DNA of 56,778 nucleotides, from the IMG/VR virus record IMGVR_UViG_3300025892_000024, positions 1 to 56,778 of that record; one strand, 5' to 3'. This DNA comes from a virus. Below, piece by piece: positions 14,519 through 35,540 of this stretch. Each line of letters begins with the position of its first letter. The first letter of the stretch is position 1. Below the pieces are notes generated by a model. The model ran no database searches, was not told where the DNA came from, and was given only the letters and a program-made list of their open reading frames with translations. The translations under genes and the position numbers were made by a program.

Positions 14519-17500
14519 AAACTATAAAAATAGAATACATAAATGGTGAAAACCGCCGAGATACAATGAGGAGGATTCAAAGAATTTTGACAGAGGAGGG
14601 TAAAGCACTAGGGCTGAATTCAGCTTCTTATTCAAAAGACATTAGCGTTCTTGTTAATGAATTGATTCAAAGCAGACAAGACCAACACATTACAATCAGA
14701 GAAGGGAGGAATGCTGGAAGATTTACTAGGAGGTCTCCAGCGCCAACTATTCCCTTGGCCGTCAAAAGTCCAGTGAAAGAACTAGATAAGTACATTCAGG
14801 ATTCTATTCCCGATGCTATGTATGGGAAAATGCTTAATTTGACTCCAAGGGAGGTAGCTTTGCAAGAATCATTGAAAACACAAGTAGGTTTGAGTTCAAA
14901 AATACGTGTGCCTCACATGGAACCAGAATCTAGGCTATTGGCAGCAAATATAGTCGGTTCATTGCCAACTGGGGGTCAAGGCATAGAAGAGGCAGCCAAG
15001 AAAAAACTATCTGCAACCGTGAAACAAGCACTTGGGGATTTAGGAATTGATGCGGAAGGTGAAAACAAAAAGCGTCTATTGGAAAGGTTGCAAGCAAAAC
15101 CCTTCTTCAATGACCCGACTTTGATTGCTAACTTTTCTAACATGATTAGGGCGTACCATGATGTAAGAGAAAACAACCTACATTACATGCAATCAATCAT
15201 GACAGGAATGTCCGCTGTAAAAGATGCCGAATTATTCACCAATTCTATGTTGCCGACACCAGACAATATTCTTAATGGGGCGACAGCATACTTGATTTAC
15301 GATACCAAAGAAGCCTTGAATGTTCAAGATATTAGTTCATATATAGATGAATTTGTGAGAAATCTCCTAAACTATAAAGAAGACAGAAAGGTGCTAAAAG
15401 CAACAGAAAAACAACAACAAATCGGCAGATTCCTGGCAACATTTGATTTCAATAGGCGGGAAGCCGCTAAAGCATTGGAAAATGCTGCGCTAAAGGCTAT
15501 CAAGACGGGCGGAGATTTCATAGACTCATATAATGAAGCAATTAAGACACCTGCTAGTGGTGCTAATTTTGATGGCAAAGAACTAGAACAAATTTTTACC
15601 CGAATGACAACAACGATGAAATACACAGAAAGAATTGACCCCGATAGAAATATATTCGAAATAGATGATGGAGTGTTGACACCCATTCCTGGTACTGAGG
15701 GAAAAAGGAATAATCAGGACATATTGGTTGAATACTTGGTTAAAAACGGCCTAGCGTATCCAATTATCCCGACAGCCAAAAGAGTAGACAAGAGCCTTTT
15801 CCTACTGATTCCTATTCAACTGCCAGCTTTTGAAATCAAGCCGATTGGTTGGGATCGAAGATGGATGATAGCAACTATGAAAATAGTCGATGAATATTGG
15901 GATATGATATATGGGAAAAATAGGCAAGTAATCCTATCAGATTTATTGTATCTTATATCTGCACGTGCAAAAGAACTTTTCAATTACGACATTGATGTAG
16001 TTCAAATGACTATTCTTGCACTACTATTGACCGACCAGCGAACAGCCAGTAGAAGAGCCCGTTCAATCTTGCCTTACACAGAGGGGGGAAAAACACCTTT
16101 GAGGAGTTTAAAGACATTGATTCGAGATAGTACAACAGAAGAAATGAAAAGGAGTGTTGGTGAAAAACCCCAAATAGCAAACCTTATGCTTGAACTAAAA
16201 AAGACAAAACTAGAACAAAGCCAAGCAGAAGAAGAAATCAAAAAGAATGGGGGTGAATTCCTGAATGCTACAAATATATTAGTAAGTATATTATCTCGCA
16301 TGTTGGACGATGTTGCTCAAAGTAATTTTGGCAATGAAGAAGAAAAGGAAATCAATGGTGCCACTAAAAAGATGGAAGACCACGCATCGGATTTCAAAGG
16401 GCAGATTGAACAACTAAGTAAAACCCTAGTCGAGAACGTGGCTGATGATTCATTCCGATTTGGAGAACCAGGCAAAACGAACGATGTTGAAAAATATTAT
16501 TTACAAATTTTGGAAGCAGTCGAAAATTACAAAGATTTGACGGGGGTACAGCCCGTCAAAGATGAGGTTTATGATGCTTTGATGATAGATGATAACTTAT
16601 TTGGCCTTGATTTTGATACAGTGAAGGAAATTGCTTCGTACAAGGAAGTCGACCTTCAAGATAAAGATAAAAAAGATAAAGAGAAAGACGATTTGTTAAA
16701 AGACCTTCAAATAAAAAGACTTGGGGGTATGCGAAGATTACTTAGAAATCCCCCATCTGGTAAAGTAGGTCATATTACTGCAGAAGTAGTATTGGGTGTT
16801 AATATCCTAAAAGATATCATGGCTGTTGGCCGAGACTTGATTGGTGGCCGATCTAAAACGATAGAGAAAAAGGTTGCACAGTGTCAAAAACTGCTGATGG
16901 AAGAACTTAGAAAGAAAGCAGAAGCATTGGGCGGCAACACTCTAAAGAATATTAGAATAGAACCTTTCACATACGGCCAAGGCAACTCAATAATTGTTTT
17001 ACTTGGTAACGCAGAAGTTTGGAATGAATCTGGAGGAAAAAAGAAAAACCCTCCAAAAAGCAACCCAATGGAAGAAGGCAGAACTGACTCCTATGATTCT
17101 TACACCTTAGCGAAAAGTGCCGCTGTCGCATTAGCTAACAAAGAGGGCGAAACAGTTTACCTGTGGCGTGAGGGCGAGAAAGTATTAGTTAGCATTTTCT
17201 TCCCAGGGCACATCGTTCCAAACAATGTCAGCGAAATTAATCCGAACCCAGCAGGGGTGATTAAGAATAATCCTTCAAAAGAGCGTAAATACAAAGGCGT
17301 GATAATCAAGAAAGTCGAGAACGGGTGGAATGTAGAAGCCTATGACAAAACACTGCCAACATTAGATAAAGCAAGAAAATTTATTTCATCTAAGGTAAAA
17401 GGTAGCGCAAAACCTAACCAAAGGTGTATCCGTATAATTTCTGGTATCCAATGCAAAGGAACAGTTGTTAAAATGAACAAAGGCCCACACTACCGATGTA

Positions 17501-17532
17501 AAGGCTGTGGGGCTAAATACAAGGCGGTGTAA
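14515..17532 (+). CDS. Large modular protein with NPP linkers and C-terminal zinc ribbon (1005 aa)
   Basis: TTG start inside the previous stop, with a strong GGAGGT at 14503-14508 that settles the start. Residues 1-740 are mostly helical and of unknown function. From Asn745-Pro-Pro onward the protein is a chain of short modules: an alpha/beta module (about 748-840), an Asn845-Pro-Pro linker, two small beta modules (about 855-895 and 925-965), and a zinc ribbon at the C-terminus with two Cys pairs (Cys-x5-Cys and Cys-x-x-Cys). The NPP linkers match those in the giant proteins at 22317 and 30683. Role unknown; it may be tagged virion cargo. Confidence 0.8.
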   Translation: MKTIKIEYINGENRRDTMRRIQRILTEEGKALGLNSASYSKDISVLVNELIQSRQDQHITIREGRNAGRFTRRSPAPTIPLAVKSPVKELDKYIQDSIPDAMYGKMLNLTPREVALQESLKTQVGLSSKIRVPHMEPESRLLAANIVGSLPTGGQGIEEAAKKKLSATVKQALGDLGIDAEGENKKRLLERLQAKPFFNDPTLIANFSNMIRAYHDVRENNLHYMQSIMTGMSAVKDAELFTNSMLPTPDNILNGATAYLIYDTKEALNVQDISSYIDEFVRNLLNYKEDRKVLKATEKQQQIGRFLATFDFNRREAAKALENAALKAIKTGGDFIDSYNEAIKTPASGANFDGKELEQIFTRMTTTMKYTERIDPDRNIFEIDDGVLTPIPGTEGKRNNQDILVEYLVKNGLAYPIIPTAKRVDKSLFLLIPIQLPAFEIKPIGWDRRWMIATMKIVDEYWDMIYGKNRQVILSDLLYLISARAKELFNYDIDVVQMTILALLLTDQRTASRRARSILPYTEGGKTPLRSLKTLIRDSTTEEMKRSVGEKPQIANLMLELKKTKLEQSQAEEEIKKNGGEFLNATNILVSILSRMLDDVAQSNFGNEEEKEINGATKKMEDHASDFKGQIEQLSKTLVENVADDSFRFGEPGKTNDVEKYYLQILEAVENYKDLTGVQPVKDEVYDALMIDDNLFGLDFDTVKEIASYKEVDLQDKDKKDKEKDDLLKDLQIKRLGGMRRLLRNPPSGKVGHITAEVVLGVNILKDIMAVGRDLIGGRSKTIEKKVAQCQKLLMEELRKKAEALGGNTLKNIRIEPFTYGQGNSIIVLLGNAEVWNESGGKKKNPPKSNPMEEGRTDSYDSYTLAKSAAVALANKEGETVYLWREGEKVLVSIFFPGHIVPNNVSEINPNPAGVIKNNPSKERKYKGVIIKKVENGWNVEAYDKTLPTLDKARKFISSKVKGSAKPNQRCIRIISGIQCKGTVVKMNKGPHYRCKGCGAKYKAV

Positions 17533-21800: not shown

Positions 21801-22320
21801 TGGAACAACCGGACTAAATGAGGCTCCACCCCCACCGCCAGCCACAAGTCCTCCAAGCGTACAAAAAAATACACTGAAATTTCCTAGCGCAAAAGACCTA
21901 ATTATTCGATTAGAAGGTTTCTTTAACAATATTGGGACTGACCAAAATGAAATTGTAAAAAATATTAGTGAAGCTAGGGGCGCAGGTCAAATAATACACT
22001 CAACAGCAACCAAACTATCCCAAGAAATAGAATCGGTTGATGGCCCTCAATTTGCAATACATGATGTTGCACCAAACAGACCGTTGAGTAAGGAAGCCGC
22101 GAAAAATGCTGCGAAGCGTGCATTGATTTTATTCGAAGCATTTGTTCCTCCAGAATCTGGAACTCCACCAGGCGAAAAGGAAATTATTGACCAATTGGTG
22201 CAAACAAACTGGCAAAATGCGTTCACAGGTTTCGATACTTTTGGCTTTAATGGATTCGAGGAAATTGGTGGCATAACTGCAATGGATGTGTTGCAAACAT
22301 TAGCGGGGGTAACTTCTTGA
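18826..22320 (+). CDS. Very large unknown protein (1164 aa) with Pro-rich linker
   Basis: AAGGTGAA at about 18812-18819 precedes ATG 18826. Most of the protein (1-960) is helical, acidic and soluble, with no motif I recognise. Residues about 980-1015 form a Ser/Glu-, Gly- and Pro-rich linker including a run of five prolines. A separate C-terminal domain of about 145 residues follows. It lacks NPP linkers, unlike its neighbours. The stop overlaps the TTG start of the giant multidomain protein (TTGA at 22317-22320), so the two are probably made together. Confidence 0.75.
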   Translation: MADPTDSELIESAKEKLQKSAKMHLSSLDEIIFCKLEDIADEDYMAGVKGKPYFIVQEYLMAINIGEEATNESVAYQRLNAVKNDLVNSKKGEIVFPTSDRITVGHYLFSYRALRNPLMNDNTQITDNLDRDVAFGLLTDDEYKYVEEELGGIDQIYISQEGDIRLQRFKVGENEVTIFPAIEEKENELRYFSPKVWGDEPTPSFLKGKENKALIERFKLMKDLQPKDKEADNNKVISKESGMSPITKYYMMRYLGFYLSASKITDDALPKLRDNKLVLDRINISRQDDFDIETELRKILEGDLGDEKIDNKFPFDRLRTIYRYPDDWVEEALTQDIEDIEEPNPWDLDVKYGMLQKFFTILPTNQKTKFYDSVEEQIYSKMPTKKISLTHKPNDMKMVKESDEITIPFLNGSFAVAESMKVFAESDPSDSKKDRLKLRTNLGDKNSQQLITDGTLVNIPGWVILYSETNRKKSFLEAVLNIKFSQIFSVIGSVSSRFLHLSEGLNHVLDMILYIRNNEETLPIKESDLYDVLNTEYEAFVSTVGDTVSTTIIDDGAYTTVNLDRKKLIEGITKPDLLKKFEWFTRSAAVMPPEPEYNTEKDQSIEGVVESVEAIMAYTDSTGLQQNQLTRHNARAFNALGHVVEEMMINSAKRAVSTVEDTALTSDFDRVVMSLIGTNKNPGMAVFHSIVHYQYLFAIVTNPISRWESIDKDIFQQGAMLSLESFLTEPAKKTLLYLLNEKGFIDIGDFSDTSPKFFKVPVAPSVNVANFTGLMNGFSLIMISYYRLMFAQIRNRLVFERKTQTKGKVSKETADLSKYWRDMIADAERNTPSPALFGLVLRWFGQTGTVLEIPTWMPVSPAEMKSDAKMNKNDVLNYLKWSYSNNAVDLEAFSEVAAAYHAAKAMSYLETAKDIASGYADMVERFVEAVHEDMGHAFLFSILTNRNCPDPTKESPEAEKVIRISNIEAIQVRKEQERTKSESESEPKSGGGGTTGLNEAPPPPPATSPPSVQKNTLKFPSAKDLIIRLEGFFNNIGTDQNEIVKNISEARGAGQIIHSTATKLSQEIESVDGPQFAIHDVAPNRPLSKEAAKNAAKRALILFEAFVPPESGTPPGEKEIIDQLVQTNWQNAFTGFDTFGFNGFEEIGGITAMDVLQTLAGVTS

Positions 22321-25300
22321 TACCTCCAATGAATGCTGTAGCGGCTCACATACTAAAAGAGCAATACATCAAAAAAATTCCTGATTTAACAGAGGAGCAA
22401 TTCTCAAAATATGCAAGGAATTTGGTAATGCGTAAGGGTGTTGAAGGGCCATTACTTACAAAATCAATACGCAGTTGGGTTGCTAAACTAGTCGGCAAGG
22501 GTGGATTGGGAGGCCAAATACTGCCGATTGGAGTTGAGATAGAAGGAAAAGCAGCAAAAGAAATCAATGCTGACGGCCAAAAGCCAATTATCATCGACAG
22601 AGATTATCCAGGCGCAACTTTAGAACAGGCGGCAAATGCTTTCCAAGCCCAAGCGATTCTATTGTATCGTGCAGAAAAGCGAGGTTCAACGATTGGCCCT
22701 GACTTATCTGCGTTGATTGAGCCACGCCCAATAACTTCAATCAATGCAGAACGAGAAGGTTCTAATGAGGAATTCGTGAATAGGCAACAAAAAATGAGGG
22801 AGGCGTATGCTAATTCTGTATTTCCTTCGATTGATGCTTTGATTCCTAACACAAAGAAGGTTATTTTCGATTCCTCTAGGGGCAGACATGAAACACTTGC
22901 TCCAGCAATGAGCATCGGGCTTAACAATCACACAACTGGTCTTTGTTTTGAAACTGTAAAAGCAAACGAAGCAACTGAATTAGTTTGCCTACGTGCGATT
23001 GGCCTGACTTCAAAGAAAGCAATCGATGGCAGTTTAAGGCTATCAAAAAGGATTGAAAAAGAAATGAAAGTGTTGACATTAGTATGCTCATGGGGTTCTA
23101 CTGCTGCTATTTTCATAGGAGGCGGACCTTTAGGTTTGGTATCCAGAAATGATGCTTATGACTTCTTAGGCAGCATTGGTAAACCATCTGGTTCTCAAGC
23201 AGTAAACAGTAAAGTACCATACCGTGACATTGACTTGCCACTGTACGAATTGAAAATAAGTAAAGAGTCATTTACGACAAGATCTAATGATGTTATGCTA
23301 TTGCCTCTTAGCTTGGACATTGCACCTGCAAGGGCAAAAACAGCATCAAACAGACCGTTTGAAGGTTCACATGATTTAGCTCCTTCCTCAATGCAAAGTG
23401 GCAGAGTATTACTTCCTGTATATGATGCCGAATCTTTTGATACTGATTACGACGACCACCCTCAAGTAGTTCAATATCGAAAAGGCACTTATATTCCAGG
23501 AGTAATCGATTTCTTATCAAGTGTAAACTTAGCAAAGGACACCAAATATCAACCAGCAGAAATGAATCCTATGAAAACAAAATGGATTGAAATGAGGAAA
23601 GAAACATCTGCAGTTAAAGAAGGCACAGTTGATGATTTGATTAACGCACTTGAAGTGTTCTCTATTCCGTTTGGCTATGAGTGTATATTAAGTTACAATC
23701 GAGGCGAATGTTATCTTGCCGTCAATGGAGAAAATGCAATAACAAATATCCAACAAACAAGAGAATTCGCTGCTTATTGTGAATCTATGGGGATAAAAGA
23801 AATTATTGCTAAAGGTGTTTTGACTCCAAGAGACAATCAAGACTTTGAATTAGTTGATTATATTGTAGATATGGATGAAATACCTACTAATGAAGAGGAT
23901 TCAATTGCAATCTTTTCTAAACTTGAAGTTAGGGTATATGGTGCATTAGACGGTAAAGACTTCAATTTATTGCGCCCACTTGCCCTTTCAACAGTTAAGT
24001 CTTGCAGAAGCCAGTCAGCTAAATTTGTAGAGTTGTCTAACAGAAACTCTGATTTGTATTACTCAGAAATGATTAGCGATGAATTGGAATCCGGGTACGC
24101 AAACAAGCTTCTTATGACATTCGAAAATGCATCACCTTTGCATCTATACGGTGATATGCAGGTAGATGCAACAATTATTGCGTTTGACATCGAGGGCAAA
24201 AATCCTCAAAACAATTTGGTAGGAAACGTGGCTCTAGCTCTAATCTCAAAAGAGAGTGTAAAAATTGATGGTAAATCAAAAACAGTGGAGGCGTTTGTAC
24301 CTATTGGAACTACCAACGCATTTAGAGGATTCACTACAGAAGCAAAAAGAAGGATGCTCGACTACCTGATGGACCATGCTTTACAACCAGGGTACAAAGA
24401 TGGCTACTTGCTAATAGATCCAGTTAAGGCACAATTAACATTGAATGTTTCTTTCAAAGGTTTTGCTAAACAAGAAAGCCAACCAATCTATGAACATTAT
24501 ACGGAGATGAGGAAGTTCAAAGGCGACAGCCTACCGAAACCAGCCTTCTATGAGAAGGGAATTGGAAGGGTAGAGCCTACAGAACTCAAATACGAGCGCA
24601 TAAAAATACCAACATTTACAGATGCGGTTCCGGTTAGGACATATTTACGTGAAGTGGGTAAGAAAAAACTACCTATGCTAAAGAATCCAGTGATTACTTC
24701 GTTAGGGACCACAATCGATGGCCTTGACGATATGTTTGAGAAAAGCAAAGTTAGATACTCGGTCAAAGAATCGTTTTCACTTCAAGTTCCACTTTCACAA
24801 TTGAAGAAAAACGGACCAGAACCGCCAACAAAAGAATTAGATTTACCAGGGTCGATGTCAGTTTCTGATTTGCTGAACCTATCTTTGAATCCTCCATCAA
24901 CTTGCCCAATGGCTACTCAAAATCTTGAAGTAAATACCAAAAACAGAGATGCCGCAGTAAAAGCACCACACATTCAATATGGTCCGCTTAATCTTAGTGA
25001 TGAAGATTATTGGGTCCGATATGGAGAAAGGTGGAACACTGATGCACAAGTCGCTAAAAACTCGAATTGTAGCAATTGCATTGCCTTCGATATCAGTCCA
25101 AGAATGAAAGATTGCATGCCAGGAAAAACATCTGACAAAGAAGGGCAATTGGGTTACTGTTGGATGCACCACTTCAAATGCCATTCCGCTAGAACCTGTT
25201 ACACATGGGCATCTGGTGGTCCTATAGACCTAGATTCGGTTTCATTAGATTGGCAGAAGAGGTCTGAATCAGCTTTCAAATCAAATCCTCCTACGGATAA

Positions 25301-28300
25301 CTGGACTGCCCACCGCCAAAAGGTGCCATGGGAGTTCGACCAAGATGCATTTGATGGAACGGCATTCAGGACATTCCAAATGGACGACCCCGAAGATCGT
25401 AGGAAAGCTATTCACATGGATGGTTGGAGAAGGAGATTTGACAAATACAAAGGCGTTCAAGCGATAGCAGGTAAATTATCTTCAACAGGCAAATGGCACA
25501 TTCAAAGTATTAGGGTTCCGAAGAAATACAACCTTAGACGAAACCGTAAAGAAATGAAATTGGACAAACAACAACCGCCCCAGTGGTATGTGGAATTAAG
25601 GCCTAACACAAAGCCGTTTGGAACTAAAAATAATCCAATCATTCCACACGACTACATCAAAGCCATGGACAGGGGTTGGACTGGTTATCCTCATTGGATG
25701 ATAAAGAGAAATCCAGCACCTGATGTTTTAGATAATGCATACTATCACGGAACTACGCTTTCAAAAGCGAGGGAGATATTCGCCTCAAGATGGTTCAACT
25801 TCAAGGAAGATTACCCAACTTTTACGGATTCCTTGGATGTAGCTATAAGATTTGGCGTAGTCAAATGGCTTGGAAATAAAAATCCAGCAGACCCAATCGT
25901 AATCCTACAACTCGATTCAGAAGCAGCAGACAAAACGCTGAAACGATTAGAACGCATACCGGATTACTTCTCCGTTGATGGGCATTACTATGCGGTGATG
26001 GACCCGATACCGTCTTACTTCTTGCGCCCAGTGCAATACACGGAAGAACAATTCCATGAGGATTATGAAAAAATGAAAATGAAACATAAACATTCTCACG
26101 CTTGGGGGCAAAAGCGTTTCCCTGTCCCATCGAGCGACCAATACGCATCATTGAATGCCAATTGGGACGGAAACTACATCAGTAGTTGGCTTGATGACCC
26201 TTACAACAACTGGTGGAATTTTAGAGAACAAAAAGAACACGCTCCGTTCTACGCTGACAAAAAGAACCCAATGGCACCGGGCTACCAATCATACGGTTGG
26301 ACTACCCAAGACTGGCGTTCAATCAAAGTCAACAACAAGGGCGAAATTGATTATTCGCAGAAATGCGGTGCAGAAGGGACACAAACAGCAAGTGGCAAGC
26401 CCCGCCTTTGCCTCCCTGCTCCAGTGGTGAAGGCTTTGATGAGGACAGACTCAGGAAAGCAAGTAATCCGTGAACAGGCTCGCAAAAAAGTACGTGCTAA
26501 GAAGGGCGAGCGAATACCGTGGCATCCGAGAATCAAGAAACTGTGGAAGAAACTTGAAGAAAAAACACCTGCGGATAAAAGGAATCCAGTTTTGCCGAAG
26601 AAGAAGCATGGGAACTTCCCGCCCGCAGTGTTTCAATTCGACCCAGGGGTGACGGAAGGAGCTGAATGGTATACAGATGAAGAAGGATTACATGAAGAAT
26701 TATCATCACTTAGGAAAAACCATGATGAATATGTAAAACAGTACATGCGGAAGAATTTCAGTCAAAGGTGGAGTTGGGAAACTGAATATACTGGAAAAAG
26801 GCGTGAAGAAGAAAAAAAGATTCTTGAAAAAGCAAAAACAGTCGCAGACAAACACTTCCATGATAAGATGTGTACTAAGGGGGAAGACGGGAAGCCTTGT
26901 GAGTTTTGGCATGGTGGAATGAAAGCACCCTCGGTAGGGGAGCCGATGGCGTGGCATGAAAGGGAAAGAAAACCCACTCCTTGTACAGTCGGTTCCTACA
27001 AACTATGTATTAGTGGTTGCCTATTCTGCTACAAAGAGCAAGGTAGTACAATATCAAACCCTCCAGGTATTCCAAAGAAAGGTTCTGAATTGACGACAGA
27101 GAAGAAGCGTGAGATCCGTAAGAGATGGCTCGAACTTGTTAACATGACAAAACATGAGCTACAAACCTTCTATGATTCTGAATGGGGCAACAAAAGAGCA
27201 GGGTTGAGTAGAGATGAGGCTAAAGAAGCAGGGATCTCATCTGGTAGAGATTCAGCTTTAGCAATCTTGAAAATGAAAGAGACTCCTGTTAAAGAATGGT
27301 CTAAGCGTAAATCAAAAGACAGAGGCAGAGACATAATGCTGGACTTTTGGCAATGGGCTCAAAAGCAAATCAACTTCAATACACGCCATAGAGGAATGCA
27401 GGGTGCTTACTTAGACGACAGAGGCCGACCAAAGCGTAAGCTGTTAGGTCTATGGATATGGGGGCATGACCCTTGGAGATATGCACTTCAAGTGACGGGC
27501 GAAAAGATGGGCGAGTGTCCTAATGTTGCATGGGTTGGTCGTAAAGAGAAAGAGAAGTATGGCGTTAGGCCGATGATAAATCCTCCAACAATCCCTTCTA
27601 CTGCTTTCAAACTGATTCCTTCAGCAAAACCAGAACTTACCTACGCAGAGGGATATGCGCCTCAAAGAATAGTGGAGCGAGGGTGGTGGATGTATGATGC
27701 TCCTTGTGGTGAATACAGTCCTCCTGGATGGTTAAACATTAATCTCGCATATGACCCTAAAGGAGAATTTAACGCAGGGCAGTTTTGCTCAAACATCAGT
27801 CCAGACTGGATAATTTGGGACAACCCACCAAAGTTCACACCTTTGTATGGTGACATTCTAACAATAAGTGGTCCATCGGGTTCGGGCAAATCAACTATGG
27901 CTCAAGCGTTAGCTAAGAAACTGAAAGGGCAAATCATACCATCTTACATGACACGTGAGAAGCGCCCTAAAGAGAAAGAAGGAATTGATGGCGTGTTTAT
28001 CACTAAAGATAAGTTCGAGGAAATGATTGAGAACGGGGAGTTTACTGCAGGTGAAGTGAATCTATGGGTCAAACAAAAGAATGGAGAATACTATGGCCGC
28101 AGAGCATCAGACTTTGCAATTTCAAAACCAGTAATTATTGATGCGAACTTCGAGGGTATAAGAAGAATGCGTGCTGCATTCCCCAATAAGACATACAGCG
28201 TATTCATCAGAACAGGAATGGGTGAAGATAGAAGAAAGCAACTTCTAACTGCTAGAGGCGTTCATACTGAGGAAGAGATAGAAAGCAGGGTGAAGGCCGG

Positions 28301-30686
28301 AACAGGTATGCTATCCACATTCCAGAACATGAACTTCGATTTCATAGCAGCCAACAAGAGGGGGGAATTACCTAAGAATGTGAAAATGATTGCCTCTGAA
28401 TTCAAGAAGTGGAGGAATAGACCGATGGCGAATCCTCCAGCGCACCACGACAAAACTTCCATTGTCCGAAGATTTGTGAAAGACTTAGATCCATCTATTG
28501 AATTCACCGCAAAATCACTTGAAGGTCGATTGAAGAATGCTGGATACCGTATGCATCCGAATGCTCGGCAGATTGGGAGAATACTCAGTATCATGAAAAA
28601 AGAGGGCTTGATAGTTCAAACCAAATTTAGCGGGTCTGTAACATATCGGAATTCCGAAAGCAATTACGCCATGGAAAATCCCCCAAGTGTGTCTCCCGAA
28701 GACTATGTGCAGTTTTATAGGAATATTCCTGTCTTTGAGGGCGATGGCGCACTGGATATGGGTATTCAAACTGATAAAGGTAAAACCAAATATCACAATC
28801 AATGGCTAGATGGTGTATTCTCTGATATGCCAGATAAGGCAGAAGCATGGAAAAAGCAATCATTCAGTAAAGAAATAGCTTTGAGAACTGTTATTGACGA
28901 AGACGGAACTGTGCATGAGGGATTCCTGGACAAGTATGCTGATGATAATAGGCCATATACAGTATCTTTGAAAGTTGATGGTGACAGCTCTTTGATTCAC
29001 TTTAATGGAAATGAATCGGTTGTATGGAATAAGCGAGGCCGGTGGAGAAGAAATTTCCACATTACGGATGAAATGACTGATTATCTGCAATCACAGGGGA
29101 TTGATTCAGCACAGATATTGGGTGAATTGTATGCTGTTGATGAAGGAGGGGCAACATTATCGTTGAAAGAGATTAGCAGTATAATTGTAGCTCCGAAAAC
29201 AATGGAGAGACAGAAACAAATCCGCTTTGCTGCCTTCGACATTCTAGAACTAAACGGTAGGGATTACATCGACACGCCTTATGGGGAAAGAATGGAGGCA
29301 CTGGACAACCTGTTTGCTGGTGAAGACTTGCCATCAATCATGAGCGTTCCAATGTTGAAGAGTGATGGGGGAGTGAAGGAAGTCCTTGAATTGTGGGAGG
29401 AAAGTATGAGTGAGCCAAACTTTGAGGGCTTGGTTCTAAGATTTGATGGCGATAACAAATCAATCAAAATCAAGATGAAAGGCACAGCAGACTTAGCCAT
29501 CATAGGCTACTATCACGGAAAAGAGGGCGGCAACAAAGAATCTATTGTTGGTGGAGGCGCTTTAGCTTGGATGCTTCCTAATGGTGATTTCATTTATGCG
29601 GGTAAATCAGTCATTGGTTCAACAGACAAAGAGAAAGGCGAGTTACTTGAACTATTGAGCAAAGACCAAATCGATGCCCCTAACATGAAGCTTGGCGGTA
29701 GGGTAGTTTCTAACTCAGTAAGAGAAACCCATGATGTGAGGGGCAAAGGAATGCTAAAGATGGTAAAGCCAAAGTATGTCGGGGAGTTCCTTTATCGTAA
29801 TATCAACTTCAAAGATTGCCCCGTATTCAGATTGAAAGGTAAGAAGTTGTTGTATGTAGGAACAGTTAGGGCACCAGTATTACAACAACCATCTTTCAAG
29901 AAATGGCGTGAAGATAAATCAATCAACGCTCAAGATCTAAGAATAGAGCAAGTTCCACTTGAAGGAACAGGAAAGTGGGGTCAAATAAAACCTAATCCTC
30001 CTGGGGACCTTCCGGAAGATATAGAATATCCTGGGGGTCATGGGCAATATTTGACGGATTCAATAACTATTGGGGCTTTGATAGAACAGATAGGCGCTGA
30101 TGGCAAAAAGCGAAGAAATCTAAACTCAAGAGGATTCTATCAAGAGCATGTAAATCCAAAATGGCCTTTGGAGCACCCCGAACTAGCAGCACGTTTGATT
30201 GAGGCAGAGAAGAAAGGCTGGAAAATCCCGCAAGAATTAGCAAAACACTTGATACGGCCTAATCCTCCAAAGAATACAGGAGTCATGCTCCCTCCAATCA
30301 TCGTGACAGGCACGATGTATGATTCAAAACTATTGAGGCAATATCCAAACTACGGTTTCATCTTTGGCGATAATGAAAAAAGAACAGGGAAGGGCGGTCA
30401 AGCGGTAATCCGTGATGAACCGAATGCCATAGGAGTGAGGACAAAGGCCAGTTCGAGAAAGTTCTGGAATGATAGTCATATGCAAAACTCCGTCAAGATG
30501 ATGTCGGAGGACTTCTTGCGTGTATTCAATGGGGGATATGACGCAATAGTGATTCCTGTCGCTGGGATAGGCACAGGATTAGCCGAATTGAAAAAGCGTG
30601 CACCCCTCACTAACAGATGGCTTCAAACTGTTATGGAGCAATTAAATACAATAGCCAAGACTGAAAAAACGGGGGAATTGAAATGA
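22317..30686 (+). CDS. Giant multidomain (poly)protein with NPP-delimited modules (2789 aa)
   Basis: TTG start in the upstream stop with a GGGGGT site at 22305-22310. Modules are separated by Asn-Pro-Pro/Asn-Pro at residues 858, 990, 1132, 1317, 1423, 1581, 1755, 2039, 2121, 2560 and 2649. Order: an 857-residue unknown domain; Cys/His-rich (861-985); unknown (993-1131); ADP-ribosyltransferase-like (1134-1316); two basic modules (1319-1580), the second with a Cys-x3-Cys-x2-Cys cluster; a basic helical module (1583-1754); a short module, then guanylate kinase (1846-2038) behind another Asn-Pro-Pro at 1836; winged helix (2041-2120); ATP-dependent DNA ligase (2123-2559); a small basic module (2562-2648); and a C-terminal alpha/beta domain with a Gly-Ile-Gly-Thr-Gly-Leu loop. 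Fusing such unrelated enzymes is atypical. A processed polyprotein or tagged-cargo carrier is inferred. It overlaps 30683 by ATGA. Confidence 0.9.
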   Translation: MIPPMNAVAAHILKEQYIKKIPDLTEEQFSKYARNLVMRKGVEGPLLTKSIRSWVAKLVGKGGLGGQILPIGVEIEGKAAKEINADGQKPIIIDRDYPGATLEQAANAFQAQAILLYRAEKRGSTIGPDLSALIEPRPITSINAEREGSNEEFVNRQQKMREAYANSVFPSIDALIPNTKKVIFDSSRGRHETLAPAMSIGLNNHTTGLCFETVKANEATELVCLRAIGLTSKKAIDGSLRLSKRIEKEMKVLTLVCSWGSTAAIFIGGGPLGLVSRNDAYDFLGSIGKPSGSQAVNSKVPYRDIDLPLYELKISKESFTTRSNDVMLLPLSLDIAPARAKTASNRPFEGSHDLAPSSMQSGRVLLPVYDAESFDTDYDDHPQVVQYRKGTYIPGVIDFLSSVNLAKDTKYQPAEMNPMKTKWIEMRKETSAVKEGTVDDLINALEVFSIPFGYECILSYNRGECYLAVNGENAITNIQQTREFAAYCESMGIKEIIAKGVLTPRDNQDFELVDYIVDMDEIPTNEEDSIAIFSKLEVRVYGALDGKDFNLLRPLALSTVKSCRSQSAKFVELSNRNSDLYYSEMISDELESGYANKLLMTFENASPLHLYGDMQVDATIIAFDIEGKNPQNNLVGNVALALISKESVKIDGKSKTVEAFVPIGTTNAFRGFTTEAKRRMLDYLMDHALQPGYKDGYLLIDPVKAQLTLNVSFKGFAKQESQPIYEHYTEMRKFKGDSLPKPAFYEKGIGRVEPTELKYERIKIPTFTDAVPVRTYLREVGKKKLPMLKNPVITSLGTTIDGLDDMFEKSKVRYSVKESFSLQVPLSQLKKNGPEPPTKELDLPGSMSVSDLLNLSLNPPSTCPMATQNLEVNTKNRDAAVKAPHIQYGPLNLSDEDYWVRYGERWNTDAQVAKNSNCSNCIAFDISPRMKDCMPGKTSDKEGQLGYCWMHHFKCHSARTCYTWASGGPIDLDSVSLDWQKRSESAFKSNPPTDNWTAHRQKVPWEFDQDAFDGTAFRTFQMDDPEDRRKAIHMDGWRRRFDKYKGVQAIAGKLSSTGKWHIQSIRVPKKYNLRRNRKEMKLDKQQPPQWYVELRPNTKPFGTKNNPIIPHDYIKAMDRGWTGYPHWMIKRNPAPDVLDNAYYHGTTLSKAREIFASRWFNFKEDYPTFTDSLDVAIRFGVVKWLGNKNPADPIVILQLDSEAADKTLKRLERIPDYFSVDGHYYAVMDPIPSYFLRPVQYTEEQFHEDYEKMKMKHKHSHAWGQKRFPVPSSDQYASLNANWDGNYISSWLDDPYNNWWNFREQKEHAPFYADKKNPMAPGYQSYGWTTQDWRSIKVNNKGEIDYSQKCGAEGTQTASGKPRLCLPAPVVKALMRTDSGKQVIREQARKKVRAKKGERIPWHPRIKKLWKKLEEKTPADKRNPVLPKKKHGNFPPAVFQFDPGVTEGAEWYTDEEGLHEELSSLRKNHDEYVKQYMRKNFSQRWSWETEYTGKRREEEKKILEKAKTVADKHFHDKMCTKGEDGKPCEFWHGGMKAPSVGEPMAWHERERKPTPCTVGSYKLCISGCLFCYKEQGSTISNPPGIPKKGSELTTEKKREIRKRWLELVNMTKHELQTFYDSEWGNKRAGLSRDEAKEAGISSGRDSALAILKMKETPVKEWSKRKSKDRGRDIMLDFWQWAQKQINFNTRHRGMQGAYLDDRGRPKRKLLGLWIWGHDPWRYALQVTGEKMGECPNVAWVGRKEKEKYGVRPMINPPTIPSTAFKLIPSAKPELTYAEGYAPQRIVERGWWMYDAPCGEYSPPGWLNINLAYDPKGEFNAGQFCSNISPDWIIWDNPPKFTPLYGDILTISGPSGSGKSTMAQALAKKLKGQIIPSYMTREKRPKEKEGIDGVFITKDKFEEMIENGEFTAGEVNLWVKQKNGEYYGRRASDFAISKPVIIDANFEGIRRMRAAFPNKTYSVFIRTGMGEDRRKQLLTARGVHTEEEIESRVKAGTGMLSTFQNMNFDFIAANKRGELPKNVKMIASEFKKWRNRPMANPPAHHDKTSIVRRFVKDLDPSIEFTAKSLEGRLKNAGYRMHPNARQIGRILSIMKKEGLIVQTKFSGSVTYRNSESNYAMENPPSVSPEDYVQFYRNIPVFEGDGALDMGIQTDKGKTKYHNQWLDGVFSDMPDKAEAWKKQSFSKEIALRTVIDEDGTVHEGFLDKYADDNRPYTVSLKVDGDSSLIHFNGNESVVWNKRGRWRRNFHITDEMTDYLQSQGIDSAQILGELYAVDEGGATLSLKEISSIIVAPKTMERQKQIRFAAFDILELNGRDYIDTPYGERMEALDNLFAGEDLPSIMSVPMLKSDGGVKEVLELWEESMSEPNFEGLVLRFDGDNKSIKIKMKGTADLAIIGYYHGKEGGNKESIVGGGALAWMLPNGDFIYAGKSVIGSTDKEKGELLELLSKDQIDAPNMKLGGRVVSNSVRETHDVRGKGMLKMVKPKYVGEFLYRNINFKDCPVFRLKGKKLLYVGTVRAPVLQQPSFKKWREDKSINAQDLRIEQVPLEGTGKWGQIKPNPPGDLPEDIEYPGGHGQYLTDSITIGALIEQIGADGKKRRNLNSRGFYQEHVNPKWPLEHPELAARLIEAEKKGWKIPQELAKHLIRPNPPKNTGVMLPPIIVTGTMYDSKLLRQYPNYGFIFGDNEKRTGKGGQAVIRDEPNAIGVRTKASSRKFWNDSHMQNSVKMMSEDFLRVFNGGYDAIVIPVAGIGTGLAELKKRAPLTNRWLQTVMEQLNTIAKTEKTGELK
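24897..25271 (+). other. Cys/His-rich putative metal-binding module of the giant protein
   Basis: Residues about 861-985 contain Cys-x-x-Cys, then a lone Cys, then a Cys-Trp-Met-His-His-x-x-x-Cys-His cluster followed by Arg-Thr-Cys. The density and spacing of Cys and His indicate zinc or an iron-sulphur centre. It is bounded by Asn-Pro-Pro on both sides (858 and 990). Function unknown. Confidence 0.6.
25710..26264 (+). other. ADP-ribosyltransferase-like module of the giant protein
   Basis: The module starts at Asn1132-Pro. Tyr-Tyr-His1144-Gly-Thr-Thr is followed by a Leu-Ser-Lys-Ala-Arg-Glu-Ile helix, then Phe-Thr-Asp-Ser-x6-Arg-Phe-Gly. This order (HGT strand, helix, FTD...FG) is characteristic of the ART/PARP/KptA-type NAD-binding fold. 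The third catalytic residue is not assigned. It could modify host protein or nucleic acid, or act as a 2'-phosphotransferase-like enzyme; the exact activity is unknown. Confidence 0.6.
27825..28430 (+). other. Guanylate kinase-like module of the giant protein
   Basis: Walker A Gly-Pro-Ser-Gly-Ser-Gly-Lys-Ser-Thr at residues 1852-1860 is followed by a Ser-Tyr-Met-Thr-Arg-x-x-Arg-Pro segment (the GMP-binding loop of guanylate kinases) and a Gly-Glu-Tyr-Tyr-Gly motif that corresponds to the conserved YYG of the family. Length (about 200 residues) fits a complete GMP kinase domain, which would phosphorylate (d)GMP with ATP. It is preceded by Asn1836-Pro-Pro and followed by Asn2039-Pro-Pro. Confidence 0.8.
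28431..28676 (+). other. Winged-helix module of the giant protein
   Basis: The 82 residues between Asn2039-Pro-Pro and Asn2121-Pro-Pro run helix, helix, an Arg-Gln-Ile-Gly-Arg-Ile-Leu recognition-type helix and a Gly-Leu-Ile...Val-Thr-Tyr beta wing. This matches a small winged helix, probably nucleic-acid binding. The module is preceded by Pro-Met-Ala, as if it once had its own start codon. Confidence 0.55.
28680..29993 (+). other. ATP-dependent DNA ligase module of the giant protein
   Basis: Motif I is Lys2219-Val-Asp-Gly, with Lys2219 the expected AMP acceptor. It is followed by Gly-Glu-Leu-Tyr (motif III), Phe-Asp-Ile-Leu-x-x-Asn-Gly (IIIa), Glu-Gly-Leu-Val (IV) and Ile-Lys-Ile-Lys-Met-Lys (V). 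An OB-type domain follows, with a Trp-Arg-Glu-Asp-Lys element matching motif VI. All nucleotidyltransferase motifs are present, so the module should be active. It would seal nicks in DNA (RNA ligase activity is less likely given motif VI). It is bounded by Asn2121-Pro-Pro and Asn2560-Pro-Pro. Confidence 0.85.
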
Positions 30687-33600
30687 ATCACGAACCAAGG
30701 TCAAACCCCATCATGCGTTTGAAAAAGATGAAAAAGCCGAAAGGACGAAAACTTAGAGGCGAAGTTAATCCGATTGTTCGTAAAATGTTCCGTCGAGACC
30801 AGAATGGTGTTGTCGGTGCTATTGCTTATTCTAGTAAAAGAGAGGCGAAAAAACAATTCAATTCCAAAAGTTATGTATGGGAATTCGAGAATAAATATCC
30901 TGGAGAAATATTCGAATACCATTTAGAAAAGCAGGTCATTACCGGTGTTGTAAGGGGTAGCGATTGGAAAAAGATTAGACCAAGGCTGCACCCCTTAGAT
31001 GGCAGCCCTTACACAACATCAGATATACAACAAGTGAGAGCTGCGGACGAAGCGCCGAAAAGTACCCTGATATCTTTACTGACTGACAAAGAGGTTGTTT
31101 CACACAATAACCCATACGACCCCGAAATCATAATCACTGCACCACATACATTCGATGACAAAAAAGAAGACGGCCACGATACTGATTGGTTATCCGAATC
31201 ATTAGCAGATGAACTACACAGCACTCTTCACAATAGAGGAGTTCCTGTATTACTCCTAAAGGGCGAAATAGATCGTGATGACTTGGACTTAAACAGGCTT
31301 GAATCTGAAAATCACGAGTTCCACAAAACACTAGATGATACCTTGCCTCAAGCAGATATGTTATTCGATATACATTCTTACCCGCCTTACTATCCTGTAT
31401 GGGCTGACTACGACATTGTATTATTTCATAATGGGCCATATCATACAGATGAAGACAACTTGGATACTCTTGAACTATTTGAGTACATACAAAAGAGAAT
31501 TCCAGACGCTTCAATATACATTGAATTAGCTAATGAAACACAACACTTCATTCAAAACAAGGGGCTATCTTACGATTTGAGTTCTTTCTTGATTGAGATA
31601 AATGAAACTAGGACTGATTTAGTTGAGGACTTAGCAGAAGCTTTAGCAGATTTCGCATTGGGAGTTTCACCAAATCCACCGAGTTTATTGCCAGAAGGAG
31701 CAAGATATCACCAATTCACTATTTCGCTCCCCCTTTCGACTCCATTGAACAAAAAATTAGTATTTCCAGAGATAATGGAGTTAGAAATGATTGATAAAGG
31801 ATTTACCCTGCGTAAAAAGACATTAGACAGGGTAACAGGTACTATTACAGATTTTCTTACATTTGGGTTGCCACCAGGTATGGACGAAAGACCAACTATC
31901 GGCCTTCAAAGGGGGAAAAAAGATGCTTTGTTGAGAAAAGCAGAACACCTTACGAATGATGAAGTTATCTTGATTCAAGACTTAATCACAGAGTCAGCGG
32001 AAAAACAACCCATCATGAATCCCTTTGAACCTGAGAAAGATGCAAGGAAAGAATTGAAAGACATAGGCGTTGAGGGTAACAAAGACATTGATAAGGTTGT
32101 AAAGTATATTCAAACTGGAAATGTATCGGCTTTTACGGGTTGGAACAACAATAGGAAAAAGAAAAACATTAACCATTTGACTGATGAACAGTATAAAAAA
32201 ATAGTAGCTATGTTTGATTCAGGGCTGTCAGAAAATAGCACTGACAATGAAATCAAAGAGGCACTTAGGAAATACAATATAGATGAGCCCAAAAAGGGCA
32301 ATAAACTAAATCGTAGCAAAGCACTACAAAAGTTTCACATCGTAGGGGATTTTTCCGAAGATGAAGATTTGGAAAAAGAATTGAAGTACAGGAACATCAA
32401 TGTCTCTAAGAAAGGAGATAAGTTAGATCGAGAAAAGGCACTAGGGCAATTGGCTTCTAAAGCTCAAATAAAAGCAACAAAACTTACTGACTTTGTTGAA
32501 GCCAAAGCACAAAAGATGAAACTTTCAACAGATGTCACAAAGTCGATTATGGAAGCTATCATCCCCGGCGCATCAAAAACAATAGCGCCTGGTTCCCAAA
32601 CTGATACAAGGGAAAGAAGAAAGATTGATGGTAAATTTATGACGAACAACGAGTTCAAAAATAAGTTCAAGCCGAAAAATAAACAGGATTGGAATAAATG
32701 GAATCAGGCTCAAAAGGAAAAGCCTACCAATCAAAAAGGTCAAGGTAATGCTAAAGAGGACGATTGGAGTAAAGAGTTTAAGCTAATTGATGGCTACAAA
32801 ACCAGCAAAAGAGATTGGCGCAGTAAACAGGGCAGAGTGCCTAATTGGGACGAATGGAATAATGCACCTAAAGCCAATCCTCCAGTAGTAGCAATTCCTT
32901 CGGAGGGTAAATTCGTTATGGATGTGACAGATGAAGTAGTTAGAGATGCCACAATTTCTGTAATCAAAGGCAAACCCGAATTAGATGTGCAAGGAGTAGC
33001 CACTGGAGAAACCCTTGACAAAAAAATGGGCAATATCATCAGAATCAATATGTTTAGAAAATCAGCCGGCTTCAAACTAAGTAGGGGCGATGCAAACACA
33101 GATTATGTGATTTCTATTGAGACTGGTGGCAAGCACTTCTATGTTAAATCAAAAGTGAATATTGATGGTTTAGCAATCTTGAAACACTTCCCTACAAAGA
33201 AAAGCGAACCAAGACTAAGAGTTGAAACAAGGGGTATGTTACAGTTTGGAAATAAATCCGGCTTCATCAGAGTACGAGGCAAAACCCATGACCTATACGA
33301 TTCAGTTAAAATTAGTCAATTGTTGTTGAATCCAACTAGATATGCTCAACAGTATTTGGACGACCATATACCAATTGAAGATTCAAAGATTCCAACATCT
33401 TACAAGAAGTACAAACTAGAGGGCCCTATTGGTTCAACCGAATTCTTTGAACAGATATCGGCAAAAATGCAAAACTTTGGTGAAGGCCAAGGTTGGGTAA
33501 AAGACGGCCACCTGTATTGGAGGAAGGGCAACAATGCAGATAACTACGTGAATGTTGATGGATTGATGATAGAAGGCGGTGAAGCTTGGATGCACACCCA

Positions 33601-34006
33601 CCCTGCTGCTTGGGAGCCATCGCAAACAAGTCCAGACGATTTCAAAGTCATGCATGGTATGTTTACTGTGCATGGTGTAAAAGATTTCTTTACTATAATA
33701 GCAGATAGAATTGACTGGTTTAGGTTCTCTAAGAAAGAAAAATTAGAAGATATGGTTGAAGTGATTGAAGAATTTGAAAGCGATATTGAAACTGAATTCG
33801 ATGTAGCCGAACAAAATTTTGTGAACAAAATGGGTGAAGAACCATACCTGACTTCTGAACTTACTAAATACATAACAAACCATTTCAATAAAACCATTCC
33901 AGAGTTCCAAGCAAAATATAGGGCATACATGCTGTCTCCTTCACAAATCAACCAAAGAACTAAGAAAAATCCACCAGATATGATTGACATACATGGCTTT
34001 TACTAA
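30683..34006 (+). CDS. Second multidomain (poly)protein: amidohydrolase-like, SAP-like repeats, JAMM-like (1107 aa)
   Basis: It overlaps the 2,789-residue gene by ATGA. The N-terminus carries Ser-Asn-Pro (residue 8) and a basic module. After Asn143-Pro comes an N-formylglutamate-amidohydrolase-like domain, with Ala-Pro-His155, Asp-Leu-Asp-Leu-Asn-Arg and Asp-Ile-His231-Ser as probable zinc and substrate residues. Asn331-Pro-Pro and Asn446-Pro follow. Next are two SAP-like repeats of about 40 residues, a Lys/Asn/Trp-rich linker, Asn732-Pro-Pro, and a C-terminal module with a JAMM-like metalloprotease motif (Glu967, His971-Thr-His973-Pro). A final Asn1096-Pro-Pro lies only 12 residues before the stop. 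A self-processing polyprotein or enzyme carrier is inferred. Confidence 0.85.
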   Translation: MNHEPRSNPIMRLKKMKKPKGRKLRGEVNPIVRKMFRRDQNGVVGAIAYSSKREAKKQFNSKSYVWEFENKYPGEIFEYHLEKQVITGVVRGSDWKKIRPRLHPLDGSPYTTSDIQQVRAADEAPKSTLISLLTDKEVVSHNNPYDPEIIITAPHTFDDKKEDGHDTDWLSESLADELHSTLHNRGVPVLLLKGEIDRDDLDLNRLESENHEFHKTLDDTLPQADMLFDIHSYPPYYPVWADYDIVLFHNGPYHTDEDNLDTLELFEYIQKRIPDASIYIELANETQHFIQNKGLSYDLSSFLIEINETRTDLVEDLAEALADFALGVSPNPPSLLPEGARYHQFTISLPLSTPLNKKLVFPEIMELEMIDKGFTLRKKTLDRVTGTITDFLTFGLPPGMDERPTIGLQRGKKDALLRKAEHLTNDEVILIQDLITESAEKQPIMNPFEPEKDARKELKDIGVEGNKDIDKVVKYIQTGNVSAFTGWNNNRKKKNINHLTDEQYKKIVAMFDSGLSENSTDNEIKEALRKYNIDEPKKGNKLNRSKALQKFHIVGDFSEDEDLEKELKYRNINVSKKGDKLDREKALGQLASKAQIKATKLTDFVEAKAQKMKLSTDVTKSIMEAIIPGASKTIAPGSQTDTRERRKIDGKFMTNNEFKNKFKPKNKQDWNKWNQAQKEKPTNQKGQGNAKEDDWSKEFKLIDGYKTSKRDWRSKQGRVPNWDEWNNAPKANPPVVAIPSEGKFVMDVTDEVVRDATISVIKGKPELDVQGVATGETLDKKMGNIIRINMFRKSAGFKLSRGDANTDYVISIETGGKHFYVKSKVNIDGLAILKHFPTKKSEPRLRVETRGMLQFGNKSGFIRVRGKTHDLYDSVKISQLLLNPTRYAQQYLDDHIPIEDSKIPTSYKKYKLEGPIGSTEFFEQISAKMQNFGEGQGWVKDGHLYWRKGNNADNYVNVDGLMIEGGEAWMHTHPAAWEPSQTSPDDFKVMHGMFTVHGVKDFFTIIADRIDWFRFSKKEKLEDMVEVIEEFESDIETEFDVAEQNFVNKMGEEPYLTSELTKYITNHFNKTIPEFQAKYRAYMLSPSQINQRTKKNPPDMIDIHGFY
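31109..31672 (+). other. N-formylglutamate-amidohydrolase-like module
   Basis: Between Asn143-Pro and Asn331-Pro-Pro of the second giant protein. Residues Ala-Pro-His155, the Asp-x-Asn-Arg motif and Phe-Asp-Ile-His231-Ser-Tyr recall the zinc-binding and substrate-binding elements of the N-formylglutamate amidohydrolase (zinc carboxypeptidase-like) superfamily. Likely a zinc-dependent amide hydrolase. The substrate could be a small amide, a peptide or a cell-envelope component. Confidence 0.5.
32879..33967 (+). other. JAMM-like metalloprotease module
   Basis: Residues 733-1095 of the second giant protein. Glu967 precedes His971-Thr-His973-Pro, then Ser983-x-x-Asp986 after a spacer two residues longer than in the usual JAMM consensus (His-x-His-x7-Ser-x2-Asp). 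If the metal site forms, this would be a zinc isopeptidase or endopeptidase, and a candidate for cutting the NPP junctions. The unusual spacing keeps confidence moderate. Confidence 0.5.
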
Positions 34007-35540
34007 GCGTTTCATTGATAGGGACAAAACACTTCCCCGTTTCATGGATGATAATAAAATCATTAGTGGCCGAGAGGCGCAACGATGGATTGTAGATACT
34101 GCGATGGAAATGGCTGATGCAGTTAGGCACACCTTGGGTCCAAAAGGAATGGATATGATGCTTGTAGATCGTATCGGAAATAAGGTGCTCACTAACGATG
34201 GCGCAACAATACTCCGTTCTTTGGAAACCAAAGACCCCGTAGCTTCAATTATTGCTGAGGTAGCGAAAAGTCAAGAGCAAAACGCATTCGATGGAACTAC
34301 CACATGTATTGTTGTGATGGGGGAGCTATTGAGGCGAGCAGACGAATTAATTTCAAGGGGAGTTCACCCAAATGCAATCATCAAGGGATACAGGCTCGGT
34401 TTAGGCGAGGCATTGGAATCTGCGAAGACGCACAGTATTGAGAAAGAACCGTATGAAGCTGGAAGGGCCGCAGCAAGAACGGCAATCACTGGTAAATCTG
34501 CAGAAGACTTTGTTGATGTTCTAAGCGATATTTGTTCACGTGCTGCTATGATTTCAAAACCAAGTGATATGATGCTTCTTACAATACCAGGTAATACAAA
34601 TGATGCAGAACTGATTGAAGGCCTTGTTTTACTAAAATCACCCGCTACGGCTGGTATGCCATCTAAGACGACTGGAAAGGTTGCTTTGATTGAGCAAGAC
34701 TTGGCCCCACCTCAAGCGCAAGTAACTCTAAACGACCCAGCCAAAATCGCAGAAATCGTCGAAATACAACAGAAATTCATTGAACATACTGTGAATAACT
34801 TCGTTAAACATGAAGTCAAAGCTATATTCTGCCAAAAGAACATCGATTCGAAAGTCCTTCAACTATTGAGGACAAACGGAATTGTAGCATTCCGGCACAT
34901 CAAAAGAAGCAACATGCTCAAACTAGCATCATCGATGGATTGCCATGTCATAAGCGATTTTGCAGATGTAAACGAAGAGGACTTGGGTCATGGCGAGGTC
35001 GAGGTTGTTGAATCAGTAAATGATTACGTGACAATCAAAGGCGAACACATTCAAGCCGCTTCAATCATTATGCCAGCGCCAACTGAACAGTCTGGAGAGG
35101 AATTTCAAAGAGCAATGGAGGACGCTCTTGGTGTTGCTTATCTTGCTGTAAAAGACCGCAGGTTGGTGCCCGGTGCTGGAACAATTCAATCTTTGATGTC
35201 TTATGACCTACTCAACTGTGAACAACAGTACACGGGTAAAGTCGAAGTAGCACGTAAGGCATTCGCTGAATCTTTACTAATCATTCCTCAAACACTTGCT
35301 GAATCTGCAGGTATGGATATTATGGACGTGACAGTACACCTACAAAAAGAACCGAGCTTGGGAGTAAATGTCGATGAAATGGAACTTATGACAATGCTAG
35401 TGTTTGAACCTTTAGCAGTTGTAGAATCCGCACTAAATGGGGCTGTTGAGAATGCTGTATCTCTTCTTAGGACACACTCTATCATCTTAGCGAAACCTAT
35501 TCAAGAGATATTTGCAGAGGCGGAAAGGAGGAAAGACTGA
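33993..35540 (+). CDS. Group II chaperonin (thermosome subunit), virus-encoded
   Basis: 515 residues, full length for the family. The ATP-binding and hydrolysis signatures are present: Leu-Gly-Pro-Lys-Gly-Met-Asp (48-54), Asn-Asp-Gly-Ala-Thr (68-72), Asp-Gly-Thr-Thr-Thr (100-104) and Val-Pro-Gly-Ala-Gly (392-396). It would form a double-ring cage that folds proteins with ATP. ATG 33993 was chosen over TTG 33984 because the protein then begins as thermosomes do; it overlaps the end of the giant protein gene by 14 bases. Divergences from the consensus (Phe before Asp100, an unusual C-terminal helix) suggest long separate evolution from host copies. Placement right after the giant proteins suggests it folds them or the capsid. 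Confidence 0.95.
   Translation: MAFTKRFIDRDKTLPRFMDDNKIISGREAQRWIVDTAMEMADAVRHTLGPKGMDMMLVDRIGNKVLTNDGATILRSLETKDPVASIIAEVAKSQEQNAFDGTTTCIVVMGELLRRADELISRGVHPNAIIKGYRLGLGEALESAKTHSIEKEPYEAGRAAARTAITGKSAEDFVDVLSDICSRAAMISKPSDMMLLTIPGNTNDAELIEGLVLLKSPATAGMPSKTTGKVALIEQDLAPPQAQVTLNDPAKIAEIVEIQQKFIEHTVNNFVKHEVKAIFCQKNIDSKVLQLLRTNGIVAFRHIKRSNMLKLASSMDCHVISDFADVNEEDLGHGEVEVVESVNDYVTIKGEHIQAASIIMPAPTEQSGEEFQRAMEDALGVAYLAVKDRRLVPGAGTIQSLMSYDLLNCEQQYTGKVEVARKAFAESLLIIPQTLAESAGMDIMDVTVHLQKEPSLGVNVDEMELMTMLVFEPLAVVESALNGAVENAVSLLRTHSIILAKPIQEIFAEAERRKD

Follow-up and report, generated by a model that had tools for sequence, protein, structure and literature searches.

Asn-Pro sites mark the joints of exchangeable cassettes in giant multi-enzyme proteins of a probably archaeal virus family

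The window analyzed here, a 56,778-nt stretch that constitutes IMG/VR virus record IMGVR_UViG_3300025892_000024, encodes a giant protein built of modules that join at Asn-Pro (NP) motifs. Comparison with related viruses shows cassette construction at NP, a wider conserved site around it, and an N-terminal leader with the same site on a separate protein. Our best explanation, in which belief and doubt are about evenly balanced, is that the chain is one of several cassette-built polyproteins of packaged effectors that would be cut at NP, in a family of uncultivated dsDNA viruses that is probably archaeal. An initial annotation of the sequence had suggested a polyprotein or a carrier of tagged cargo. 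That idea was right in class, because several modules have close homologues in tailed phages that bear capsid-targeting leaders. Its view that the architecture is not a known one has to be narrowed: giant multi-effector polyvalent proteins have been described from phages and plasmids (PMC5512222), and the novelty lies in the signal at the junctions, the exchange of cassettes and the group of viruses involved.

A chain of cassettes joined at Asn-Pro

The open reading frame at positions 22317-30686 (plus strand) is uninterrupted, starts with TTG and encodes 2,789 amino acids. NP occurs at 18 residues (417, 629, 790, 858, 990, 1106, 1132, 1189, 1317, 1423, 1581, 1755, 1836, 2039, 2121, 2560, 2613 and 2649), versus 8.0 in composition shuffles. 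NPP occurs 9 times, versus 0.49, and 9 NPP were reached in none of 5,000 shuffles. The eleven NP/NPP positions listed in the initial annotation, and a further one at 1836, are all correct in the translated protein; the list omitted six more, in the head (417, 629, 790) and within modules (1106, 1189, 2613).

All parts of the chain lie on the plus strand. The head (residues 1-857, positions 22317-24887) has no NP at its start and is homologous to part of a separate primase-ligase-like gene, which in other family members stands alone just upstream of the polyprotein. An iterated HMM finds the head domain in 12 of 12 genomes, with the alignment in the other clade running from about residue 480-535 of the stand-alone gene; we infer that the head is LigD-like/degenerate. 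Behind the NPP junction at 858 (24888-24896) lies a Cys-rich module (862-984, "CPMATQNL...", 24900-25268) that occurs in hundreds of viral contigs as a free-standing protein tagged with a capsid-targeting sequence (CTS). The NPP at 990 (25284-25292) precedes a module at 992-1104 whose homology boundary falls at NP in three relatives (G002, G004 and G013). The NP at 1132 (25710-25715) precedes a module at 1134-1300 that is called ART-like from a sequence motif alone (YYHGTT), with no Pfam match and, by HMM, no homologue within the family. The modules that begin at NP 1317 (1317-1422, NPMAPGYQSYGW..., 26265-26582), NP 1423 (1423-1580, 26583-27056) and NPP 1581 (1581-1754, LLGLWIWGHDPWR, 27057-27578) are delimited, respectively, by identity from NP in unrelated contexts, by boundary comparison across the family, and by a family scan, boundary comparison and HMM.

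NPP 1755 opens a module (1755-1835, 27579-27821) with a homologue in G013 only, where the NP is aligned, and NPP 1836 opens a guanylate kinase-like module (1836-2038, 27822-28430; Pfam E 5.6e-15 over 1848-2014) found in 12 of 12 genomes. The next module, at NPP 2039 (2039-2120, 28431-28676), was read in the initial annotation as winged-helix-like and has no homologue within the family by HMM. The chain ends with an ATP-dependent DNA ligase module at NPP 2121 (28677-29993; Pfam DNA_ligase_A_M and A_C, 2211-2375), with a boundary near NP in G013; a module at NPP 2560 (2560-2648, YPGG..., 29994-30260), with a boundary in the same relative; and a DUF7831 module at NPP 2649 (30261-30683; Pfam E 3.2e-28 over 2667-2771), with an NP boundary in other genomes. 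Recognizable folds had been said to be preceded by the motif, and the Pfam guanylate kinase, DNA ligase and DUF7831 domains indeed each lie downstream of an NPP. A second NP polyprotein of 1,107 amino acids (30683-34006, plus strand) has an FGase-like module (residues 146-310) among others, and a third protein (14515-17532, plus strand) has C-terminal NPP-flanked modules, with a YbjQ-like module at 751-833 and a zinc-ribbon-like C-terminus.

A scan with the whole protein was dominated by module 862-984, which is encoded in at least 599 viral contigs, one of which (L002) is a true relative with several giant NP-rich proteins. Residues 985-2040 used alone as query found one relative, and further relatives came from scans with module 1581-1754 and with the virion-cluster protein at 42822-43352. 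These scans brought together about a dozen related virus contigs of up to 140 kb, plus two from MAG bins, all from records that are or may be incomplete; twelve genomes, including the window, carry the polyprotein region. The giant proteins of the relatives have overlapping sets of modules in differing orders. Effector and enzyme domains found in one chain are guanylate kinase, ligase and DUF7831 in the window, and NUDIX, glutaredoxin, HD, Ham1, FGase and DUF5824 in relatives. The guanylate kinase and a JAMM-like module are in all twelve sets, and most other modules are patchy.

We compared 32 giant proteins all-against-all and placed module boundaries where BLAST alignments end, making no use of NP. 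Among 400 dipeptides, NP ranks first in enrichment at the 180 start boundaries, and NPP ranks first among the tripeptides tested. Ninety-nine of the 180 boundaries are within 12 residues of an NP, versus 30.2±5.3 (maximum 52) in 2,000 randomly shifted controls, figures that show strength rather than an exact probability since alignments related by descent are not independent. By HMM, 88 of 116 internal module instances start with NP. Most misses fall on the ligase and head domains, for which the seed does not begin where the module does; among the others are DUF7831 in G009, one module in G013 and a second JAMM-like copy in the head gene. Some junctions have no NP (glutaredoxin/DUF7831 in G009), and some NPs lie inside modules. 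The proposal that NP/NPP tracks module boundaries is thus borne out by an unbiased test across related genomes with shuffled module order. It also agrees with predicted structure at the two sites modelled: AlphaFold2 gives residues 1750-2045 a confident kinase fold (pLDDT about 90 over roughly 1841-2034), and NPP 1836 and NPP 2039 both lie outside it, in low-confidence flanks. Module 1755-1835, which has one homologue, is not resolved in this model.

The same module is repeatedly found in new company. The NPMAPGYQSYGW... module occurs in four contexts in which the upstream sequence is unrelated and likeness begins at N-P; in the comparison with L089, high DNA similarity begins at AACCCA, and the preceding DNA is unrelated. 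For the module at 858, identity begins at NP in four contexts, and for DUF5824 in eight. Hence, NP travels with the downstream module. These alignments show that cassettes are gained, lost and reordered at Asn-Pro codons. The codons themselves vary, so selection seems to act on the protein rather than on a DNA site, and for that reason we rejected recombination at a fixed DNA site.

The fuller junction motif, [V/I/P/A/T]-[K/L/R/M]-x-N-P-(P), is a short and degenerate one. In each of two clades taken separately, residues -3, -2 and +2 are enriched relative to the remaining NPs of those genomes; against those NPs, the bias to [V/I/P/A/T] at -3 and [K/L/R/M] at -2, both together, has p about 1e-10 and 7e-24. 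Residues -3 and -2 belong to the upstream module yet are biased, and a recombination relict alone would not keep them. The comparisons show that the site is kept at the joint although both sides differ in history, which argues that something reads it as a unit. M-x-NPP is present at three junctions of the window protein (1755, 2039 and 2121), and the initial annotation had supposed that each module once began in this way. Across the family K, L and R dominate at position -2 and M is minor, so M more plausibly belongs to the site than marks a relict start codon. Other observations contradict the supposition as well: the family's stand-alone FGase-like genes lack NP whereas the fused copies have it, and phage homologues of module 862-984 begin with a different leader.

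Tailed-phage homologues and Asn-Pro leaders

In tailed-phage contigs, module 862-984 is a separate small protein, and [I/L/F]xE lies within 10 residues before the domain in 36 of 55 distinct leaders. The leader MKLLxENWRKFLNE is found on unrelated ORFs of these contigs (44 of 1,197 N-termini, versus 0 of 1,197 internal controls); it has the same form as the T4 capsid-targeting sequence, which ends in the gp21 site L/I-x-E (PMC9026906). Leader-bearing phage proteins include homologues of other NP-polyprotein modules (NUDIX and DUF5824), and in most such homologues the NP position is the leader position. Homology thus shows that cargo is shared between NP polyproteins and CTS-tagged phage proteins. 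Since the phage homologues have CTS-type leaders, the cargo repertoire is common to both, with a tag that differs by virus group, and this ties two groups of orphan genes together.

In the more general form MKLLxENWR[KQ][FY][IL]xE, the leader is on many unrelated small ORFs of one phage, up to 9 in 20 kb of L012, with further loci in L048, L040, L065, L053 and others of L003-L081. It is apparently a capsid-targeting tag in wide use, by which orphan genes are marked out as cargo for packaging. Other phage lineages have other leaders (LNFNQYLILE, SWEIILKE). DUF5824 is also found within a multi-domain protein of the cultured myophages HTVC008M and Melnitz, with an N-terminal CTS-type leader in Melnitz. 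This protein of T4-like phages (L168 8834-10786 in Melnitz-3, L167 8378-10168 in HTVC008M) has a nucleotidyltransferase-like start, DUF5824 later, a leader such as MKKFSEIIE, and [L/I]xE between domains. Chained cargo may occur in tailed phages too.

NP is also found in short N-terminal leaders of the virus family itself. The Lys/Arg-repeat protein at 37053-38438 begins MAGNQLLLINPPKKGG in the window, with the leader MAGNQLLLINPP at 37053-37088 (plus strand). The leader is present in ten genomes, and in the nine relatives it reads about MALxELVLVNPP (NPV or NPT in two), followed by a basic stretch. There is no domain upstream in this protein, so a pure linker role does not explain its leader. 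Other virion-cluster proteins of relatives have a short leader and NP (MPRKKVIKKNP, MQGFPKRNP and MPRFNPP). NP is not enriched at N-termini across the gene set as a whole, and the NP leader therefore concerns particular proteins. In adenovirus core protein maturation, a basic, DNA-condensing virion protein has a short N-terminal propeptide next to a repeated protease site. By description, the two cases are alike in having a basic protein with an N-terminal leader at a repeated site, and differ in motif and protease.

Possible readers of the Asn-Pro site

What might read the Asn-Pro site as a unit? We propose that every cassette has Asn-Pro as its start and codes for a single small enzyme or effector, and that a viral maturation protease would cut at or next to NP during virion assembly. 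Modules would be released as particle cargo and delivered with the genome, and the same step would also cleave the basic, DNA-condensing-like protein at its N-terminal NPP leader. Cutting at NP would then do for these proteins what the capsid-targeting leader and the [L/I]xE cut do in T4 for cargo of the same kinds. Packaging of the modules in the particle, for which the argument comes entirely from homologues in other viruses, is fairly likely. Cutting at NP, which we infer from the site and its conservation, we would neither bet on nor bet against.

Multi-effector phage proteins as a general kind are already known. Polyvalent proteins (Iyer et al. 2017, PMC5512222) combine many effector domains in single chains, among them ART and enzymes of nucleic acids and nucleotides, and are believed to be packaged and then injected; nearly all the examples given there of more than 1,000 amino acids are bacterial. 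Like NP polyproteins, they combine many distinct effector or enzyme domains in one polypeptide. Peptidase domains, mostly zincin-like metallopeptidases, are suggested there to process them. The zincin-like peptidase is common there, not universal, whereas the NP polyprotein chains scanned gave no zincin match and carry a JAMM-like domain instead; the passages used here describe no shared junction motif, in contrast to the repeated NP site and the cassette exchange at it. For this site, the exchange and the virus group, a limited literature search found no prior description. T4 internal proteins resemble NP polyproteins in combining a short leader and a short protease motif on diverse packaged effectors (PMC9026906), packaging being argued by analogy in our case. 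They mostly have one leader per separate protein and are cut after [L/I]xE, whereas NP polyproteins chain their modules at [VIPAT][KLRM]xNP(P).

The leading, unproven candidate for the processing protease is a JAMM/MPN+-like metalloprotease module (33419-33919, plus strand), which is part of every polyprotein set. Its E, HTHP and S-x2-D residues are invariant in 12 of 12 sets, and all 12 sequences have an unusual spacing, with two extra residues before S-x2-D. We call it a candidate only, because profile support is poor: the Prok-JAB HMM (PF14464) matched none of 9 genomes at E up to 10 and, across the 12 members, gave one match (E 0.0062). A comparison with solved structures gave no convincing match. 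We know of no JAMM enzyme that cuts before Asn-Pro. A non-exhaustive search turned up no known prohead-protease family. Other kinds of processing were considered and rejected: by zincins (no zincin Pfam match in the chains scanned, and HExxH once in 32 giant proteins), of the FlhB NPTH type (motif absent or single in the 32 proteins), and at [L/I]xE or [A/S]xE within chains (not enriched at boundaries; [L/I]xE 41 seen versus 47 expected). In its widest form, which we consider improbable, our proposal would extend to a large group of archaeal dsDNA viruses without tails. Their particle cargo would be made as cassette polyproteins, a maturation protease of a new kind (a JAMM enzyme that cleaves ordinary peptide bonds) would cut these at Asn-Pro, and the system would have been invented independently of T4-like leaders and gp21.

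NP could instead be a favored linker or a scar of module shuffling without any reader, in which case the multi-enzyme chain would work uncut, as a "polyvalent" protein. Domain boundaries often have Pro-rich linkers, NP coincides with the breakpoints, and some plasmid polyvalent proteins are transferred uncut (PMC5512222). However, the order of residues matters, with NPP occurring 88 times in the family's giant proteins versus 8 times for the reversed PPN. The conservation of -3 and -2 across the breakpoint, the variable NP codons and the leader of the basic protein, with nothing upstream to link, also count against this reading, which we think unlikely. That leader resembles a short N-terminal targeting peptide, as would be expected if NP were an uncut sorting motif: a capsid or scaffold protein would bind [V/I]-[K/L]-x-N-P-P and load the whole chain or each module, and in T4 leaders targeting and cutting residues are separate (PMC9026906). 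A tag between nearly all modules of one chain would be redundant, however, and the head module has none; we regard a sorting motif as doubtful.

It is very improbable that NPP acts in translation, separating modules or timing their folding through a 2A-like skip or a pause at polyproline. The likeness to NPGP and to polyproline stalls is superficial: the 32 giant proteins contain a single NPGP and no match to the 2A consensus D[V/I]ExNPGP, and about two thirds of junction NPs lack the following P. To our knowledge, 2A skipping is known from eukaryotic ribosomes only. Were the sites cut, as we propose, they would represent a second and unrelated code by which enzymes enter a virus particle, and would predict the termini of dozens of products in uncultivated viruses. 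Cassette exchange at NP provides a natural list of the enzymes these viruses carry, and the site is a short motif for recognizing unknown virion effectors in metagenomes.

Host and virion genes of the family

The twelve genomes have in common a thermosome gene, a HerA-like ATPase, a second P-loop protein and several virion-cluster proteins of no assigned function. The thermosome (group II chaperonin) gene (33984-35540, plus strand; Pfam E 5.6e-105; 12 family members) adjoins the polyprotein genes throughout the family; its product may assist in assembling particles or in folding the giant chains. An archaeal host is likely, because of this gene and of one relative's contig in a MAG labelled "Euryarchaeota". 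Another relative, a 101-kb contig (G014:C22, PAND01000026.1), is inside a MAG labelled Flavobacteriales, probably through a binning error.

The HerA-like ATPase (35942-36709, minus strand), putatively for genome packaging, was recognized from a P-loop alignment over five genomes and has no relative among named phage records. Terminase_6N is absent in 9 records, with control genomes positive, a result that covers one terminase family and records that may be fragments; together with the presence of the HerA-like ATPase, it hints at a non-tailed virus. Positions 44490-45257 and 45277-46674 encode two virion-cluster proteins, paralogues whose family is conserved throughout the 13 genomes examined. 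The structure model of the first is mostly beta and mediocre (pLDDT 67), with no significant fold match; its weak top matches are rich in single-jelly-roll capsid proteins, are non-significant and are not counted as evidence. We regard the two proteins as candidate major capsid proteins of the group with the HerA-like ATPase. In the Lys/Arg-repeat protein, the C-terminal end is conserved as [V/I]NLF (...SSRVNLF in the window, ...GKVNLF in G002 and ...KEINLF in G009).
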